Source: a virus. From it: a stretch of DNA of 39,285 nt. The notes under the pieces are model-generated. The model made no database searches. It had not been told where the DNA came from and saw only the letters and a program-made list of their open reading frames with translations. The translations under genes and the position numbers were made by a program. Of this stretch, positions 7,690-25,718 are shown in pieces; position 1 is the first letter of the stretch; every line of letters begins with the position of its first letter. The stretch covers positions 1 through 39,285 of IMG/VR virus record IMGVR_UViG_3300018033_000002, one strand, 5' to 3'.

Positions 7690-8027
7690 TTTTGTTCCTT
7701 TAATTTCTTAATTTCATCCATCAAAATATCAATTTGCATTTGCATGCATTTAATTTCTGTTCTCAATACATTATAAATATTGATACCTTTATCTTTCATT
7801 ATTCCTGCGACTTTTCTTCTTCTGATTTCTTGTTGTAGTTCTGCTCTTTGTTGAGCATGCTTTGCATTGTAATTTTCTTTGCCTCCATTGCGTCTTACTT
7901 CCGTTGTTAACGTGTTTCTTCCTCTGTCTAACTCAAGACCCATCATCGCATTGCTATATCCTGCACGGAGCATTTTTTCTATCTTTTTTCTTTCTCCATA
8001 ATCAAGGTGACTCAAAGGTTTAGACAT
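7686..8027 (-). CDS. Helix-turn-helix protein, IS30-type N-terminal domain only (113 aa)
   Basis: MSKPLSHLDYGERKKIEKML, then RAGYSNAMMGLELDRGRNTLTTEVRRNG, is the HTH pattern found at the N-terminus of IS30-type transposases (LTxxER..IE..L..G.S...IA..L.R...TI..E..RN). No DDE catalytic domain follows; the C-terminus is a coiled coil (MQMQIDILMDEIKKLKEQ). It is therefore probably a DNA-binding regulator, possibly an excisionase or repressor next to the integrase. ATG 8027 has GAGGG upstream and overlaps the integrase stop (ATGTCTAA). Confidence 0.6.
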   Translation of the reverse strand: MSKPLSHLDYGERKKIEKMLRAGYSNAMMGLELDRGRNTLTTEVRRNGGKENYNAKHAQQRAELQQEIRRRKVAGIMKDKGINIYNVLRTEIKCMQMQIDILMDEIKKLKEQK

Positions 8028-8928
8028 GATTCGCCCTCGGATGTCGTGCATGGAATGTTGCTTGAATCGTTGCGCTACTCAAGTGCGTATATCTCTCTGT
8101 ACTTGCAATTGAGCTATGACCTAAAAGACCTTGTATCATCCTTAGATCTGCGCCATTATCCAACAGGTGACTTGCGCATGCATGTCTCAAACTATGAGTC
8201 GTAACGCCCTCAATTTCAGCTTTCCTTGCATAATGAGCTACCATTGCACAAAGTAAGTTTCTATTAATGCGCTTGCCCATTAAGGTTAAAAATAGAATCC
8301 CTGCTTGCTTACCTCTATGAAAATCAATGTAATGCATGATAGCCCTATATGCCTTTTCTGTTATCGGTATTGCCCTCGTTTTGCTTCTCTTACCACACCG
8401 GACAATAACCTGCTCTTTATGCACATCCTTTAGCTCTAAATCACATAATTCGGAAGCTCTGAGACCCGAACTATACAATAGTTCGAGTATCGCTTTATCT
8501 CTTACACCCGAAGGGGTCAAGCAATTCGGTTGATCTATTAACCTTTCAACCTCCTCAGCAGTTGGCACATTTGGAGCCTTTTGAATATTTCTAGGTGGCG
8601 TTATATCTTCCGTTAAATCAACGCTAATAGCCTTTATTTTGCGTAGGAAGCGACAAAAGCTCTTGATCGACATATAATAGCGATTCAATGTCGAATCGCT
8701 CTTACCCTCTTCCTTTGCGTTTAAAAGATATCCGCGTATTGCTTCACTCTTAAAAGCTTTTACATTCTTGATACGCCTTTCGTCTAGCCAATCAACCAGC
8801 CTAGAAACGTCATGTTTGTATGCTTCTACGGTCAACGGGGCTTTCCCCGAGGCTATCTCCATCACGTAATTCAGCAAAGCTTCTTTCATGGAGAGCGAAG
8901 TTTTTGCTTTTAACTTCAGTTTTTCCAT
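8020..8928 (-). CDS. int: Tyrosine recombinase / integrase, XerC/D-like (302 aa)
   Basis: All catalytic residues are visible in order: Arg in SSGLRASELCDLEL, Lys in GKRSKTRAIPI, His-x-x-Arg in THSLRHACASHLL, His in LLGHSS and the nucleophile Tyr in STERYTHL. The N-terminal SAM-like core-binding domain spans about residues 12-100. It would integrate and excise the phage at an attachment site, which makes the phage temperate. AAGGAGG lies seven bases before ATG 8928. The coding start overlaps the end of the RHH frame by 119 bases. The attachment site itself is not obvious; candidates are the inverted repeat at 11358-11415 and the tRNA-like element at 15444. Confidence 0.93.
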   Translation of the reverse strand: MEKLKLKAKTSLSMKEALLNYVMEIASGKAPLTVEAYKHDVSRLVDWLDERRIKNVKAFKSEAIRGYLLNAKEEGKSDSTLNRYYMSIKSFCRFLRKIKAISVDLTEDITPPRNIQKAPNVPTAEEVERLIDQPNCLTPSGVRDKAILELLYSSGLRASELCDLELKDVHKEQVIVRCGKRSKTRAIPITEKAYRAIMHYIDFHRGKQAGILFLTLMGKRINRNLLCAMVAHYARKAEIEGVTTHSLRHACASHLLDNGADLRMIQGLLGHSSIASTERYTHLSSATIQATFHARHPRANHV

Positions 8929-9097
8929 TAAACGGCCTCCTTAATTTTCTTGGCTGCTTCTTCAGAAACCTTACATAGTGCACGATAATATCGGTGACTG
9001 TTAGCCCAGTATCTACACTGAGAATCTTTAGCGTATCGTGTAAGCTCAGGGGTATACGAACACATAAAGTTTTCATTTCCTCTCTGTATTTTGCCAT
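8810..9097 (-). CDS. Ribbon-helix-helix protein overlapping integrase (95 aa)
   Basis: MAKYREEMKTLCVRIPLSLHD gives the RHH beta strand (TLCVRIP), helix 1 (LHDTLKILSVDTG), and helix 2 (TDIIVHYVRFLKK). Residues beyond about 52 are basic, then polar, and are read from the integrase start region in another frame, so they may be an overprinted tail. GGAGTG lies about eight bases before ATG 9097. A frame starting at ATG 9149 directly behind the leader motif also runs through here; the RHH pattern favours the present frame. Likely regulator of the integrase operon. Confidence 0.6.
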   Translation of the reverse strand: MAKYREEMKTLCVRIPLSLHDTLKILSVDTGLTVTDIIVHYVRFLKKQPRKLRRPFNGKTEVKSKNFALHERSFAELRDGDSLGESPVDRRSIQT

Positions 9098-9156: not shown

Positions 9157-9166
9157 CCTTGGTAGG
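9157..9166 (-). promoter_or_regulatory. Leader motif CCTACCAAGG, copy at 9.16 kb
   Basis: On the minus strand CCTACCAAGG is followed by AAAAAAG and ATG (9149), so its AAGGA part serves as a ribosome site. That ATG opens a 73-codon frame out of phase with the RHH gene; the RHH start at 9097 is 52 bases further. Other copies are at 10789, 11042, 11275, 12217 and, relaxed, 18143. A small palindrome GACTAAAGTC (9179-9188) lies upstream. Confidence 0.6.
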
Positions 9167-10433: not shown

Positions 10434-10781
10434 CTATACAAAATGTAAAACGTTATTGACTTCAAGCGCTACGGCCTCTTGATTCAGTTCGATCTTAAGA
10501 GCTAAACAATACTTGTATACTTTGTCGATATCGCAATCTAATGCAAGCTGATCGCAAAAGCTTTGACAAATGACAATCTTTTCAGTAACCAGCTGACCGC
10601 CTTCTTTGGTTATCCATGCACCGAATCCATCATATGCCGTTGCGCCGTCAAATAGACCTGCAAGAAACTCTAATGTTGCATGCACATATCCGCTATTATC
10701 AATGGCTGACGTTCCATTTGTGGACGGTACATAGATCTTTATATTGTGGCTCAATGTGATTAAATTCTTTAATTGTTTCAT
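10434..10781 (-). CDS. Conserved phage protein of the VPST…GGAT type (115 aa)
   Basis: ATG 10781 is chosen because AAGGAGAG stands six bases before it within a leader motif copy; a longer frame to 10892 lacks a site. IYVPSTNGTSAIDNSGYV, then LEFLAGLFDGATAYDGFGAW and GGQLVTEKIVICQSF, follows a pattern I recognise from many phage genomes (VPST, a GGAT-like turn, G.W, G.L..E.V..V.S). Its biochemical role is not known to me. It is in the leftward early operon. Confidence 0.7.
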   Translation of the reverse strand: MKQLKNLITLSHNIKIYVPSTNGTSAIDNSGYVHATLEFLAGLFDGATAYDGFGAWITKEGGQLVTEKIVICQSFCDQLALDCDIDKVYKYCLALKIELNQEAVALEVNNVLHFV

Positions 10782-10788
10782 ATTCTCT

Positions 10789-10816
10789 CCTTGGTAGGTA
10801 GGGCGATTGCTCGCCC
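10789..10816 (-). promoter_or_regulatory. Leader element: GCAA-tetraloop hairpin plus CCTACCAAGG
   Basis: On the minus strand GGGCGA-GCAA-TCGCCC (10801-10816) is a 6-bp stem capped by a GNRA-type GCAA tetraloop. It is followed by TACCTACCAAGGAGAG and ATG 10781. The AAGGAG is the ribosome site. The copy at 11042-11070 has the same hairpin-loop-motif order with a different stem sequence, so the structure is conserved while its bases vary. Confidence 0.7.
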
Positions 10817-10822
10817 TGATTG

Positions 10823-11032
10823 TTACACACAAACTAATTGGCTTTGCTGTCCATAATATTGCCCTACATGTTGAAGGGGTTCTTCTCTCCATAGATTGGC
10901 GAACACAAAACCCTTTGTTTTGTGAAGCTTATGTATCAAGCTGATAGCTTCAACAATTGAACAATGGCATAGAATATCTTGAATATCTTCTTCCCAATCG
11001 AACAATATGCGGATTCTGAAATCTTCTCTCAT
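10823..11032 (-). CDS. Hypothetical protein (69 aa)
   Basis: ATG 11032 lies eight bases after AAGGAG inside a leader motif copy. The product starts MREDFRIRILFDWEEDIQDI and continues with a helix (SIVEAISLIHKLHKTKG) and a strand section (FVFANLWREE). The layout is compatible with a small alpha-beta domain. No family is recognised. Confidence 0.6.
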   Translation of the reverse strand: MREDFRIRILFDWEEDIQDILCHCSIVEAISLIHKLHKTKGFVFANLWREEPLQHVGQYYGQQSQLVCV

Positions 11033-11041
11033 TGTCTAACT

Positions 11042-11070
11042 CCTTGGTAGGCGGGGGAATTGCTTCCCCC
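11042..11070 (-). promoter_or_regulatory. Leader element: GCAA-tetraloop hairpin plus CCTACCAAGG
   Basis: On the minus strand GGGGGAA-GCAA-TTCCCCC (11053-11070) is a 7-bp stem with a GCAA tetraloop, followed by GCCTACCAAGGAGTT and ATG 11032. The stem differs from the copy at 10801-10816 but the loop, spacing and following motif are the same. Confidence 0.7.
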
Positions 11071-11076
11071 TGGTTG

Positions 11077-11268
11077 TTATCTTGAATAGGTCAGGTTGCT
11101 AGGATATCCGCGACCTTTAATAATCTTATCGGCCTGTTCGTCAAACCCTCGATTCCAGCCTTGCCGATAATCTCTTTTTTCGAACAGCACGCATGACTCA
11201 AAATAGATCTGATCATACTTGCCCGCTTTATAATCTTCATAACCTTTATAGTAAGCTAATGTTTTCAT
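11077..11268 (-). CDS. Small RMF/CrpP-like protein (63 aa)
   Basis: MKTLAYYKGYEDYKAGKYDQ, a Cys, then KRDYRQGWNRGFDEQADKI gives the pattern GxxAxxxG…C…R..W..G(F/W) typical of ribosome-modulation-factor-like and CrpP-like small proteins. The similarity is short, so function is not assured. It is the first gene of the long leftward operon, behind the promoter at 11416-11445, and its leader carries CTACCAAGGGG directly before the ATG. Confidence 0.55.
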   Translation of the reverse strand: MKTLAYYKGYEDYKAGKYDQIYFESCVLFEKRDYRQGWNRGFDEQADKIIKGRGYPSNLTYSR

Positions 11269-11274
11269 GTAACC

Positions 11275-11283
11275 CCTTGGTAG
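11275..11283 (-). promoter_or_regulatory. Leader motif CTACCAAGG, copy at 11.28 kb
   Basis: On the minus strand CTACCAAGGGGTTAC leads to ATG 11268, with AAGGGG as ribosome site. No GCAA hairpin is present; instead the upstream leader holds a short CTCG/CGAG inverted repeat near 11328-11341. This copy belongs to the first gene of the operon. Confidence 0.6.
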
Positions 11284-11357
11284 TTAATCGGTCATTGTGA
11301 TACATCTAGCCTAAACGCTGCAACCTAGCTCGATTTAACGAGTCACCTAGGGAGTCA

Positions 11358-11445
11358 AGTAGGCATTGCAAGCAATCGGCACTTCAATCATGCTGACTTG
11401 CTCGCAATACCTACTACTATAGCAGATTGTACAGCTTTATTGCAA
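11358..11445 (-). promoter_or_regulatory. Leftward early promoter with palindromic operator
   Basis: Minus-strand TTGCAA (11440-11445), an 18-base spacer and TATAGT (11416-11421) make a good sigma70 promoter for the leftward operon. Directly after the -10 lies an inverted repeat: AGTAGGCATTGC (11358-11369) against GCAATACCTACT (11404-11415), 11 of 12 positions matched, with 34 bases between. The proximal arm covers the expected transcription start, so a repressor bound there should block initiation. The repeat could alternatively be a recombinase core site. Confidence 0.65.
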
Positions 11446-11521
11446 GAAAAAAGATTTTCTGCGGCGATACGCTTAGAGAATCAGGGATTTAGGAAAATAA
11501 TTGAAGATCAAGGGGGGCTAT

Positions 11522-12207: not shown

Positions 12208-12281
12208 TGAGTTACTCCCTGGTAGGGTGTTTTGTGTAGGTGCCCAGGTCTCTATCAATGTAGAGATCTGGGTTTTTTTTT
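12117..12281 (+). ncRNA. Possible short rightward transcript
   Basis: A TATAAT box (12117-12122) without a convincing -35 is followed 120 bases later by a strong rightward terminator, with no rightward coding frame between. A transcript from about 12129 would contain ACTCCCTGGTAGG (12214-12226), complementary at all but one position to the CCTACCAAGGAGT of several leaders. Alternatively this stretch is only the 3' end of the small-terminase mRNA. Confidence 0.3.
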
Positions 12282-15443: not shown

Positions 15444-15519
15444 GCCTCAGAGGACGAATGGTTAAGTCGCCAGACGCTCACCCGCCTGGAGGTGTAGGTT
15501 CGAATCCTACCTTTGGCTA
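15444..15519 (+). tRNA. Degenerate tRNA or tRNA-like element
   Basis: A canonical T arm is present: GTAGG-TTCGAAT-CCTAC (15494-15510), including GGTTCGAATCC. A D arm GAC…GTC encloses GAATGGTTAA (15453-15468). The 3' strand CTTTGGC (15511-15517) pairs with 5' GCC-TC-AGAG only if TC is bulged. The anticodon arm CCAG…CTGG (15470-15489) has a loop of 12 instead of the usual 5-bp stem and 7-base loop, so no anticodon can be assigned. No CCA is encoded. Could be a decayed tRNA, an attachment-site remnant or a tRNA mimic. Confidence 0.45.
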
Positions 15520-18133: not shown

Positions 18134-18822
18134 GGCTTCTTTCCTTTTGGTAGGGTTTTTTGTTTCTTAATACGCATATTATTTATCGTTCCAGAGATAA
18201 ATTTGAACCATTCTCTCACGGGACCGCGATATTTTACAAGAATATTCCAGGCTGCCTCGATCTCGGTTATGGAGAAGTCATTTTTCTCCTGAACACACGC
18301 AGTCATCAAATCCTGAAAGCTTATGGTGAATTCCTTACCATCAGGAGACCTTTTCTTACACTTTTCCACAATGCCCGTGGTCTCGGGCTTAGACAGAACA
18401 GAACAATTGTTTGGTTCGGTATATGGTATTGTATCTGTAGTAGAGGTTGCAGATTCGTGATCCCGATTTTGCGAATCCGCATCCTCGATTTTGCAATTTT
18501 GCAATACAATAAACATTTCTTCATTTTGAAACGCATACCACATAGTCTTTTCGAATTGCGTCTTATTAAAATTTCCTTTTATAATTACTCCAAATTCTTC
18601 AAGTCTTCGTATTATTCTGAAAACCTTATCCTTATTCCAATAAGGAAAATAACCCGCAATTTCTTCCAACGTGTTGTATGTCCAGGTCCGGCCATCCCTG
18701 AAATTTTTCTTCATATTTCGATTATATGTGATCCAAAATTGGAAATGATGAATCATTATGGCGCATTCGATCCCATAAGATTCAGCTAGATTGACGTTGA
18801 ATGAATGGTTTGGTCCTGACAT
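18007..18822 (-). CDS. Replication initiator, winged-helix O-like protein (271 aa)
   Basis: AAGGAG lies before ATG 18822. The N-terminal 110 residues match phage and plasmid initiator winged-helix domains: FNVNLAESYGIECAIMIHHF, then WTYNTLEEIAGYFPYWNKDKV and FRIIRRLEEFGVI. The middle is a low-complexity linker. The C-terminus is basic (KKQKTLPKGKKPWKK) and ends with a short TFQEFLEKNGIKKPY helix. It should bind the origin and recruit the helicase loader encoded next. No iterons were found nearby. Confidence 0.75.
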   Translation of the reverse strand: MSGPNHSFNVNLAESYGIECAIMIHHFQFWITYNRNMKKNFRDGRTWTYNTLEEIAGYFPYWNKDKVFRIIRRLEEFGVIIKGNFNKTQFEKTMWYAFQNEEMFIVLQNCKIEDADSQNRDHESATSTTDTIPYTEPNNCSVLSKPETTGIVEKCKKRSPDGKEFTISFQDLMTACVQEKNDFSITEIEAAWNILVKYRGPVREWFKFISGTINNMRIKKQKTLPKGKKPWKKDSVPSAALKPPKKTSSEKDTSVLTFQEFLEKNGIKKPY

Positions 18823-25690: not shown

Positions 25691-25709
25691 ATGTAAATCC
25701 GCTTTACAT
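25691..25709 (+). repeat. 19-base hairpin repeat, copy 2
   Basis: Identical to 1443-1461: ATGTAAATCCGCTTTACAT, with 7-bp arms and a 5-base loop. It sits just before AGGAAA and ATG 25719. Position directly ahead of a ribosome site is the same as in copy 1. Confidence 0.75.
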
Positions 25710-25718
25710 AGGAAAATT

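Follow-up and report, generated by a model that had tools for sequence, protein, structure and literature searches.

A hairpin followed by a linker and a Shine-Dalgarno (SD) sequence stands before two small genes of the leftward early operon of this phage and constitutes a modular intercistronic leader that has been copied, that keeps its structure at the RNA level and that carries no terminator tail. The motif sequence is private to the phage; the architecture is found throughout its clade. Leaders and hairpins of this general kind are known (start-associated leaders, intercistronic hairpins), and what is new is that structure is kept while the letters change and that the leader moves independently of the genes.

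The phage and its relatives

The window, i.e. the whole stretch of DNA that was analyzed, is a complete IMG/VR virus record of 39,285 bases (41% G+C). It reads as a temperate tailed phage with an integrase (8020-8928, leftward), a DnaC-like loader, a large terminase, a portal and a major capsid protein. No DNA-level match to its 6-20 kb region was found among annotated phages, and a search for the host through MCP prophages in species genomes found none. Relatives were defined as about 80 IMG/VR records with the same capsid protein (68-91%), 50 of which were searched as whole records; their early regions, from the integrase to the TerS-like gene, were extracted and read. The capsid gene of five relatives (G040, G045, G041, G042 and G047) consists of two matching blocks with an insertion between them, a layout that suggests an intron or intein.

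Two leaders of one kind in the leftward operon

The operon segment that carries the two hairpins comprises the following features.

11077-11268, minus strand: 63-aa open frame, no family
11033-11079, minus strand: leader copy 1, intercistronic, running from the TAA of the 63-aa gene through CAACCAGGG, the hairpin, CCTACCAAGGAG and a spacer to the ATG of the 69-aa gene (11032)
11053-11070, minus strand: hairpin GGGGGAA-GCAA-UUCCCCC, 7 bp, local folding z = -2.8
11040-11051, minus strand: CCTACCAAGGAG, linker and SD, with CCU predicted to pair with AGG
10823-11032, minus strand: 69-aa open frame, no family
10782-10825, minus strand: leader copy 2, intercistronic, running from the TAA of the 69-aa gene through CAATCAGGG, the hairpin and CCTACCTACCAAGGAG to the ATG of the 115-aa gene (10781)
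10800-10817, minus strand: hairpin AGGGCGA-GCAA-UCGCCCU, 7 bp, local folding z = -2.8
10787-10798, minus strand: CCTACCAAGGAG, linker and SD
10434-10781, minus strand: 115-aa gene, PHROG 3543 (unknown function)

The original prediction, made from the window sequence, described two leftward genes preceded by GC-rich stems of different sequence that share a GCAA tetraloop, and this description is accurate. Between the upstream stop codon and the SD, the leader of the 69-aa gene aligns with that of the 115-aa gene (TAACAAYCAGGG...AGCAAT...CCTACCAAGGAG), and their stems differ by compensatory changes. On the minus strand there is no U-tract 3' of either hairpin and no promoter-like site inside 10782-10825 or 11033-11079. 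The window holds no hairpin copies beyond these two. Searches for relatives of the 115-aa protein and its early module among the 50 relatives and in IMG/VR returned none. Rfam gave no credible match at 10700-11120, and at gathering thresholds the window as a whole returned a tRNA match only. That tRNA-like match lies at 15444-15518 on the plus strand (RF00005, 40 bits) and is absent from the ARAGORN output.

Copies of the motif in the window

The repetition of a motif before leftward genes proved real: CTACCAAGG has four exact sites in the window, each of which lies on the minus strand a few nucleotides before an ATG, and the reversed, uncomplemented control pattern has none. The most start-enriched 8-mer of the window is TACCAAGG, with all five of its sites falling within upstream windows that make up 9.8% of the sequence (p 9e-6, uncorrected). 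The exact sites and those of looser form are listed here.

11275-11283, minus strand: CTACCAAGG before the ATG (11268) of the 63-aa gene, which opens the operon; no adjoining hairpin
11042-11050, minus strand: CTACCAAGG before the ATG of the 69-aa gene (11032)
10789-10797, minus strand: CTACCAAGG before the ATG of the 115-aa gene (10781)
9157-9165, minus strand: CTACCAAGG after TAACAAATAC, a hairpin-less copy in the leader of a ribbon-helix-helix-like gene; ATG 9149 is a doubtful start
12217-12225, minus strand: variant CTACCAGGG before a doubtful 36-aa frame (12207)
18142-18153, minus strand: relaxed CTACCAAAAGGA before the GTG (18133) of the DnaC-like loader; no hairpin, and the site falls within the upstream replication gene's coding sequence

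The additional sites that had been proposed before 9149, 12207 and 18133 do carry the motif or a variant of it, but each is weaker than the hairpin copies. The copy at 9165 (TAACAAATACCCTACCAAGG) resembles the same cassette minus its hairpin. The 73-aa frame opened by ATG 9149 and a conserved ribbon-helix-helix-like frame (8810-9097, minus strand, start 9097) overlap, and this ATG therefore may not be the main gene start. The conserved frame sits between the operon and the integrase, and from 9097 its product is 46% identical to a protein of relative G003. The relaxed sequence before the loader gene is probably a chance occurrence. A hairpin at 12242-12273 was considered as a third leader hairpin and rejected, given its rightward T8 tail; it looks like a rightward intrinsic terminator, probably that of the divergent TerS-like gene.

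Rightward genes show a separate feature. A palindrome, ATGTAAATCCGCTTTACAT, lies directly 5' of two rightward starts (1444-1462 and 25692-25710, plus strand), and palindromes resembling it also precede starts in relatives G003, G017 and G045; it is possibly an operator or promoter site.

The architecture recurs in relatives and the sequence does not

Leaders of the same build were found throughout the clade. In G002, three genes carry different hairpins, two of them with ATGAAAACTAAAAC(C)AAGGAG behind the hairpin; G019 has two genes whose different hairpins are followed by RTGAGAACTTAACCAAAAAAGGAATT; in G032, a two-tier hairpin is copied before two genes; and G016 has several such leaders, one of them with a GCAA loop. 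For most of the clade elements, the SD marks one boundary and the upstream stop codon, or a point close to it, the other. With gene starts called by a simple heuristic, as throughout the gap and leader statistics, a hairpin of at least 7 bp was present in 22 of 64 (34%) leftward tandem gaps of 35-100 nt in 31 relatives and the window, compared with 2.0% when these gaps underwent dinucleotide shuffling and with 20 of 189 (11%) rightward gaps (Fisher p 5e-5 versus leftward). A U-tail follows only one of the 22 leftward hairpins. Folding z values below -2 were obtained in close relatives for 27% of leftward gaps of at least 30 nt, 3% of leftward gaps shorter than 15 nt and 10-11% of rightward gaps. 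Unrelated phages have such hairpins in 23 of 122 gaps (19%), so the hairpin alone is not special to the clade, whose leftward operon is about twofold enriched over them (p 0.03). About two thirds of the leftward 35-100 nt gaps of the clade have no strong hairpin.

Leader alignments reveal copying within genomes. Scores of at least 30 were reached by 0.40% of comparisons within a genome versus 0.03% between genomes, and by leftward genes only. This likeness involves G000, G002, G016, G019, G032 and G040, where the downstream proteins are unrelated; six phages repeat their own linker and SD before unrelated genes. Copying also extends across genomes. When the leader at 10781 was compared with 506 leaders from other genomes, a leader of G016 that precedes an unrelated gene scored highest (36, next at most 27); the 115-aa protein has no homologue in any relative. 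The GCAA loop is confined to the two window copies and this one homologue and is not common to the clade.

The expectation that the CTACC motif would be conserved at the gene starts of relatives was refuted at the level of sequence: CTACCAAGG stands at gene starts in none of the 50 relatives (whole records), where it occurs only in coding-like contexts. Nor did the combined hairpin and motif pattern fare better in IMG/VR, with six matches, all in coding-like context, against four for a permuted control, a frequency that we regard as no higher than that of the control. A scan of IMG/VR for CCTACCAAGGAG before ATG gave a mixture of coding or unrelated-phage matches, and ACCAA, tried as a linker word for the whole clade, did not exceed other words rich in A and C. 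TACCAAGGAG serves again as SD context in some actinophage-like contigs (L139/G052), and L166/G056 carries GGGGC-GCAA-GCCCC-TACCAAGGAG; these were set aside as coincidence rather than as relatives of the motif because there was no measure of their enrichment over chance. In L223/L224 of the same G052 record (77.9 kb, 62-64% G+C, an unrelated phage), TACCAAGGAG precedes at least six genes, in one case after a hairpin, and these repeats possibly represent an independent start-associated motif.

Selection on pairing in the messenger

When the two window leaders were aligned with the G016 homologue, five of the seven stem pairs had both partners substituted and pairing held in all 21 stem cells, in an alignment of three sequences that were picked because they form hairpins. 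Covariation with the leader of a related phage, the kind of check that had been proposed, was recovered here. Across the near-perfect stems of the clade, G-U wobbles on the coding strand outnumber A-C mismatches by 12 to 2 (p 0.013), the bias that selection for pairing in the mRNA would produce. The stem sequences of clade hairpins are themselves unrelated. Since the shape of the hairpin is kept while its letters change, the element probably works in messenger RNA. The argument that a conserved loop on a varied stem betrays selection on RNA structure stands for the stem, through covariation and the clade-wide enrichment of hairpins, but not for the GCAA loop as a feature of the clade.

A covarying element in the 5' leader of the operon

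The same operon carries a structured RNA upstream of its first gene.

11416-11445, minus strand: probable promoter of the leftward operon, from a consensus match only (9/12): TTGCAA-18-TATAGT, the second hexamer preceded by TG
11314-11358, minus strand: structured RNA GACUC-P1-GUGA-P2-loop-P2'-P1'-UUGCAGC in the 5' leader, downstream of the likely promoter

The element, G(U/A)CUC-P1-bulge-P2-loop-P2'-P1'-UUGYAGC, is present in 11 phages, and across the clade its conserved boxes read GUCUC and UUGUAGC; in G020 the stems are kept and the 3' box has diverged. Its coordinates in relatives are as follows.

L286, 8229-8273; L295, 16399-16442; L299, 10484-10527; L236, 19497-19540
L237, 14648-14691; L261, 8783-8824; L274, 9743-9789
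L283, 7330-7375; L263, 17742-17788; L312, 11468-11514

A covariance model built from four members finds further members with E values of 1e-4 to 0.03 in 1.2 Mb of clade sequence. P1 and P2 covary strongly: in a test on 12 rows, one of them a weak second hit in L263 (a hand tally covered the 11 phages), 34 cells had changed on both sides compared with a shuffle mean of 9.3 (none of 500 shuffles reached 34), and 96.9% of cells were paired, with slid versions far lower; this alignment was fitted to the model, which favours structure, and a descriptor search and hand alignment were independent of that model. Rfam gave no credible match at 11250-11520. Judged by its position, the element could act in cis as an RNA for antitermination or regulation, and independently of the intercistronic leaders it is a candidate new RNA family. 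A long hairpin at about 11365-11430 (minus strand) precedes the covarying element, and in several relatives a matching hairpin bears a GAAGUG loop.

A proposed mechanism and its alternatives

On balance, the element is probably a modular intercistronic leader of a polycistronic leftward early mRNA that acts as RNA structure. The leader would open with a stop codon and a short spacer rich in A, continue with a stable hairpin and a linker that is single-stranded or pairs weakly, and close with the SD and ATG; its hairpin would work as a structure in the transcript, neither as a sequence-specific DNA site nor as an intrinsic terminator. Its role, as we infer it, would lie in translation or processing: the hairpin may keep adjacent cistrons apart, shielding each from structural interference by the gene upstream and from coupling to it and so giving every small gene its own initiation site, and it may also protect processed ends. 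The linker common within each phage would stem from recombination or conversion events that copied the leader from one gene to an unrelated one.

The CTACC word itself had been considered extra, only AAGGAG being explained by ribosome binding. It does lie outside 16S pairing, but folding predicts that the CCU of CCUACCAAGG pairs with the SD's AGG (CCU-ACCA-AGG, 3 bp, P 0.72-0.90) in both hairpin leaders, and CTACC therefore need not be a separate protein-binding word. Minimum-energy folds give a like mini-hairpin at 9165, 12225 and 18153, and at the corresponding position of the G016 homologue CUUC-CAA-GGAG can form. The pairing stays a prediction without covariation because the sequence is invariant there. 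In the window phage this mini-hairpin would partly mask the SD, and the rate may be kept modest or be regulated in this way. That the word recurs needs no explanation beyond the common ancestry of the copies. That CTACC extends the SD by pairing with a host 16S rRNA whose 3' tail is unusual is extremely improbable: CTACCAAGGAG is exactly complementary to CTCCTTGGTAG on inspection, but a 16S end that continues as GGTAG (pattern GGYTGGATCACCTCCTTGGTAG) was found in none of 84,980 species genomes, in a scan run without a positive control, many genes of the window phage have plain AAGGAG or AAAGGAG with no CTACC, and relatives use other linkers.

Other readings place the action of the leader elsewhere. 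It could be a translational operator, where a phage or host RNA-binding protein or a small RNA binds the hairpin and CUACC and represses or activates the early gene set, in the manner of T4 gp43 at its own leader. The repetition of a hairpin and an SD-covering linker at several starts of one operon fits this idea, as does the possession by each phage of its own linker, expected with a co-evolving trans-factor. We nevertheless consider it unlikely, for loops and stems differ between copies within most relatives, unlike those of a single-protein operator, no candidate regulator was identified, and early gene content varies among relatives. If the leaders were instead recombination joints only, boundary homologies for cassette exchange with no selected effect on expression, then the same leader before unrelated genes within and between genomes, and bounds that coincide with a stop codon and a start codon, would follow; promoter and stem-loop cassettes of T4-like phages are credited with gene shuffling in work cited by PMC4503421. 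Such joints need conserved sequence, yet here stem letters change while pairing is kept, and the wobble excess points to RNA pairing, which makes this explanation quite unlikely. Finally, the layout is that of the start-associated sequences of cluster K mycobacteriophages (ESAS), a short conserved word that covers the SD of some of the non-structural genes, in part with an inverted repeat just upstream (PMC3203893), for which DNA binding was proposed. Such a DNA-binding site is very unlikely here, given that the inverted repeats have no common sequence and stay complementary through compensatory and wobble changes, the opposite of what was reported for ESAS.

Relation to known systems

Pope et al. 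found little hairpin support for ESAS (PMC3203893); SAS/ESAS have since been surveyed across cluster K (PMC12699233), and similar motifs occur in Microbacterium cluster EF phages (PMC7302621). The leaders of the window clade share with them a word at the SD position that goes beyond 16S pairing, a one-orientation subset of non-structural genes, copies with a directly upstream inverted repeat, and sequences that differ between phage groups. In contrast, the window word CTACCAAGGAG is unrelated to the consensus GGGATAGGAGCCC or to GGGAAAGGACCCC, and copies number 3-6 here versus 10-19 for SAS/ESAS. SAS/ESAS come from mycobacteriophages, whereas the window clade is not known to be of actinophages. 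Their inverted repeat is 17 bp of conserved sequence, whereas the hairpins here vary in sequence with compensatory and wobble pairs and, because they vary and covary, probably act as RNA, unlike what was proposed for ESAS.

The promoter early stem-loop (PeSL) mobile regulatory cassettes of T4-like phages, named in PMC4503421, are likewise short intergenic stem-loop cassettes tied to the shuffling of small genes, but the leaders here lie inside an operon and have no promoter or terminator tail. The translational operator of T4 gp43 (PMC3014915) also combines a hairpin 5' of the start with sequence overlapping the ribosome-binding site; it serves one gene with a conserved loop and a known protein, whereas here there are several unrelated genes, variable loops and no known protein. 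Inverted repeats of cluster O and EG phages (PMC4351075, PMC7302621) are similarly repeated in short intergenic regions of non-structural operons, but they are near-invariant and DNA-site-like, and those of cluster O are not tied to starts, while the present hairpins are varied and start-tied. GCAA is a GNRA loop, of the type seen in boxB-like hairpins; a lambda-type nut site requires boxA plus a boxB hairpin for antitermination, and the window hairpins sit just before an SD.

Implications

The mechanism of start-associated sequences has been unsettled since 2011, and the clade described here presents the same layout with clear signs that the upstream repeat acts at the RNA level. One leader copied before unrelated genes means that expression signals move separately from the genes they serve. 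It is possible, if doubtful, that the clade controls its leftward early operon through RNA as a whole, with the new 5' leader element at its head and interchangeable intercistronic cassettes that would set output gene by gene.
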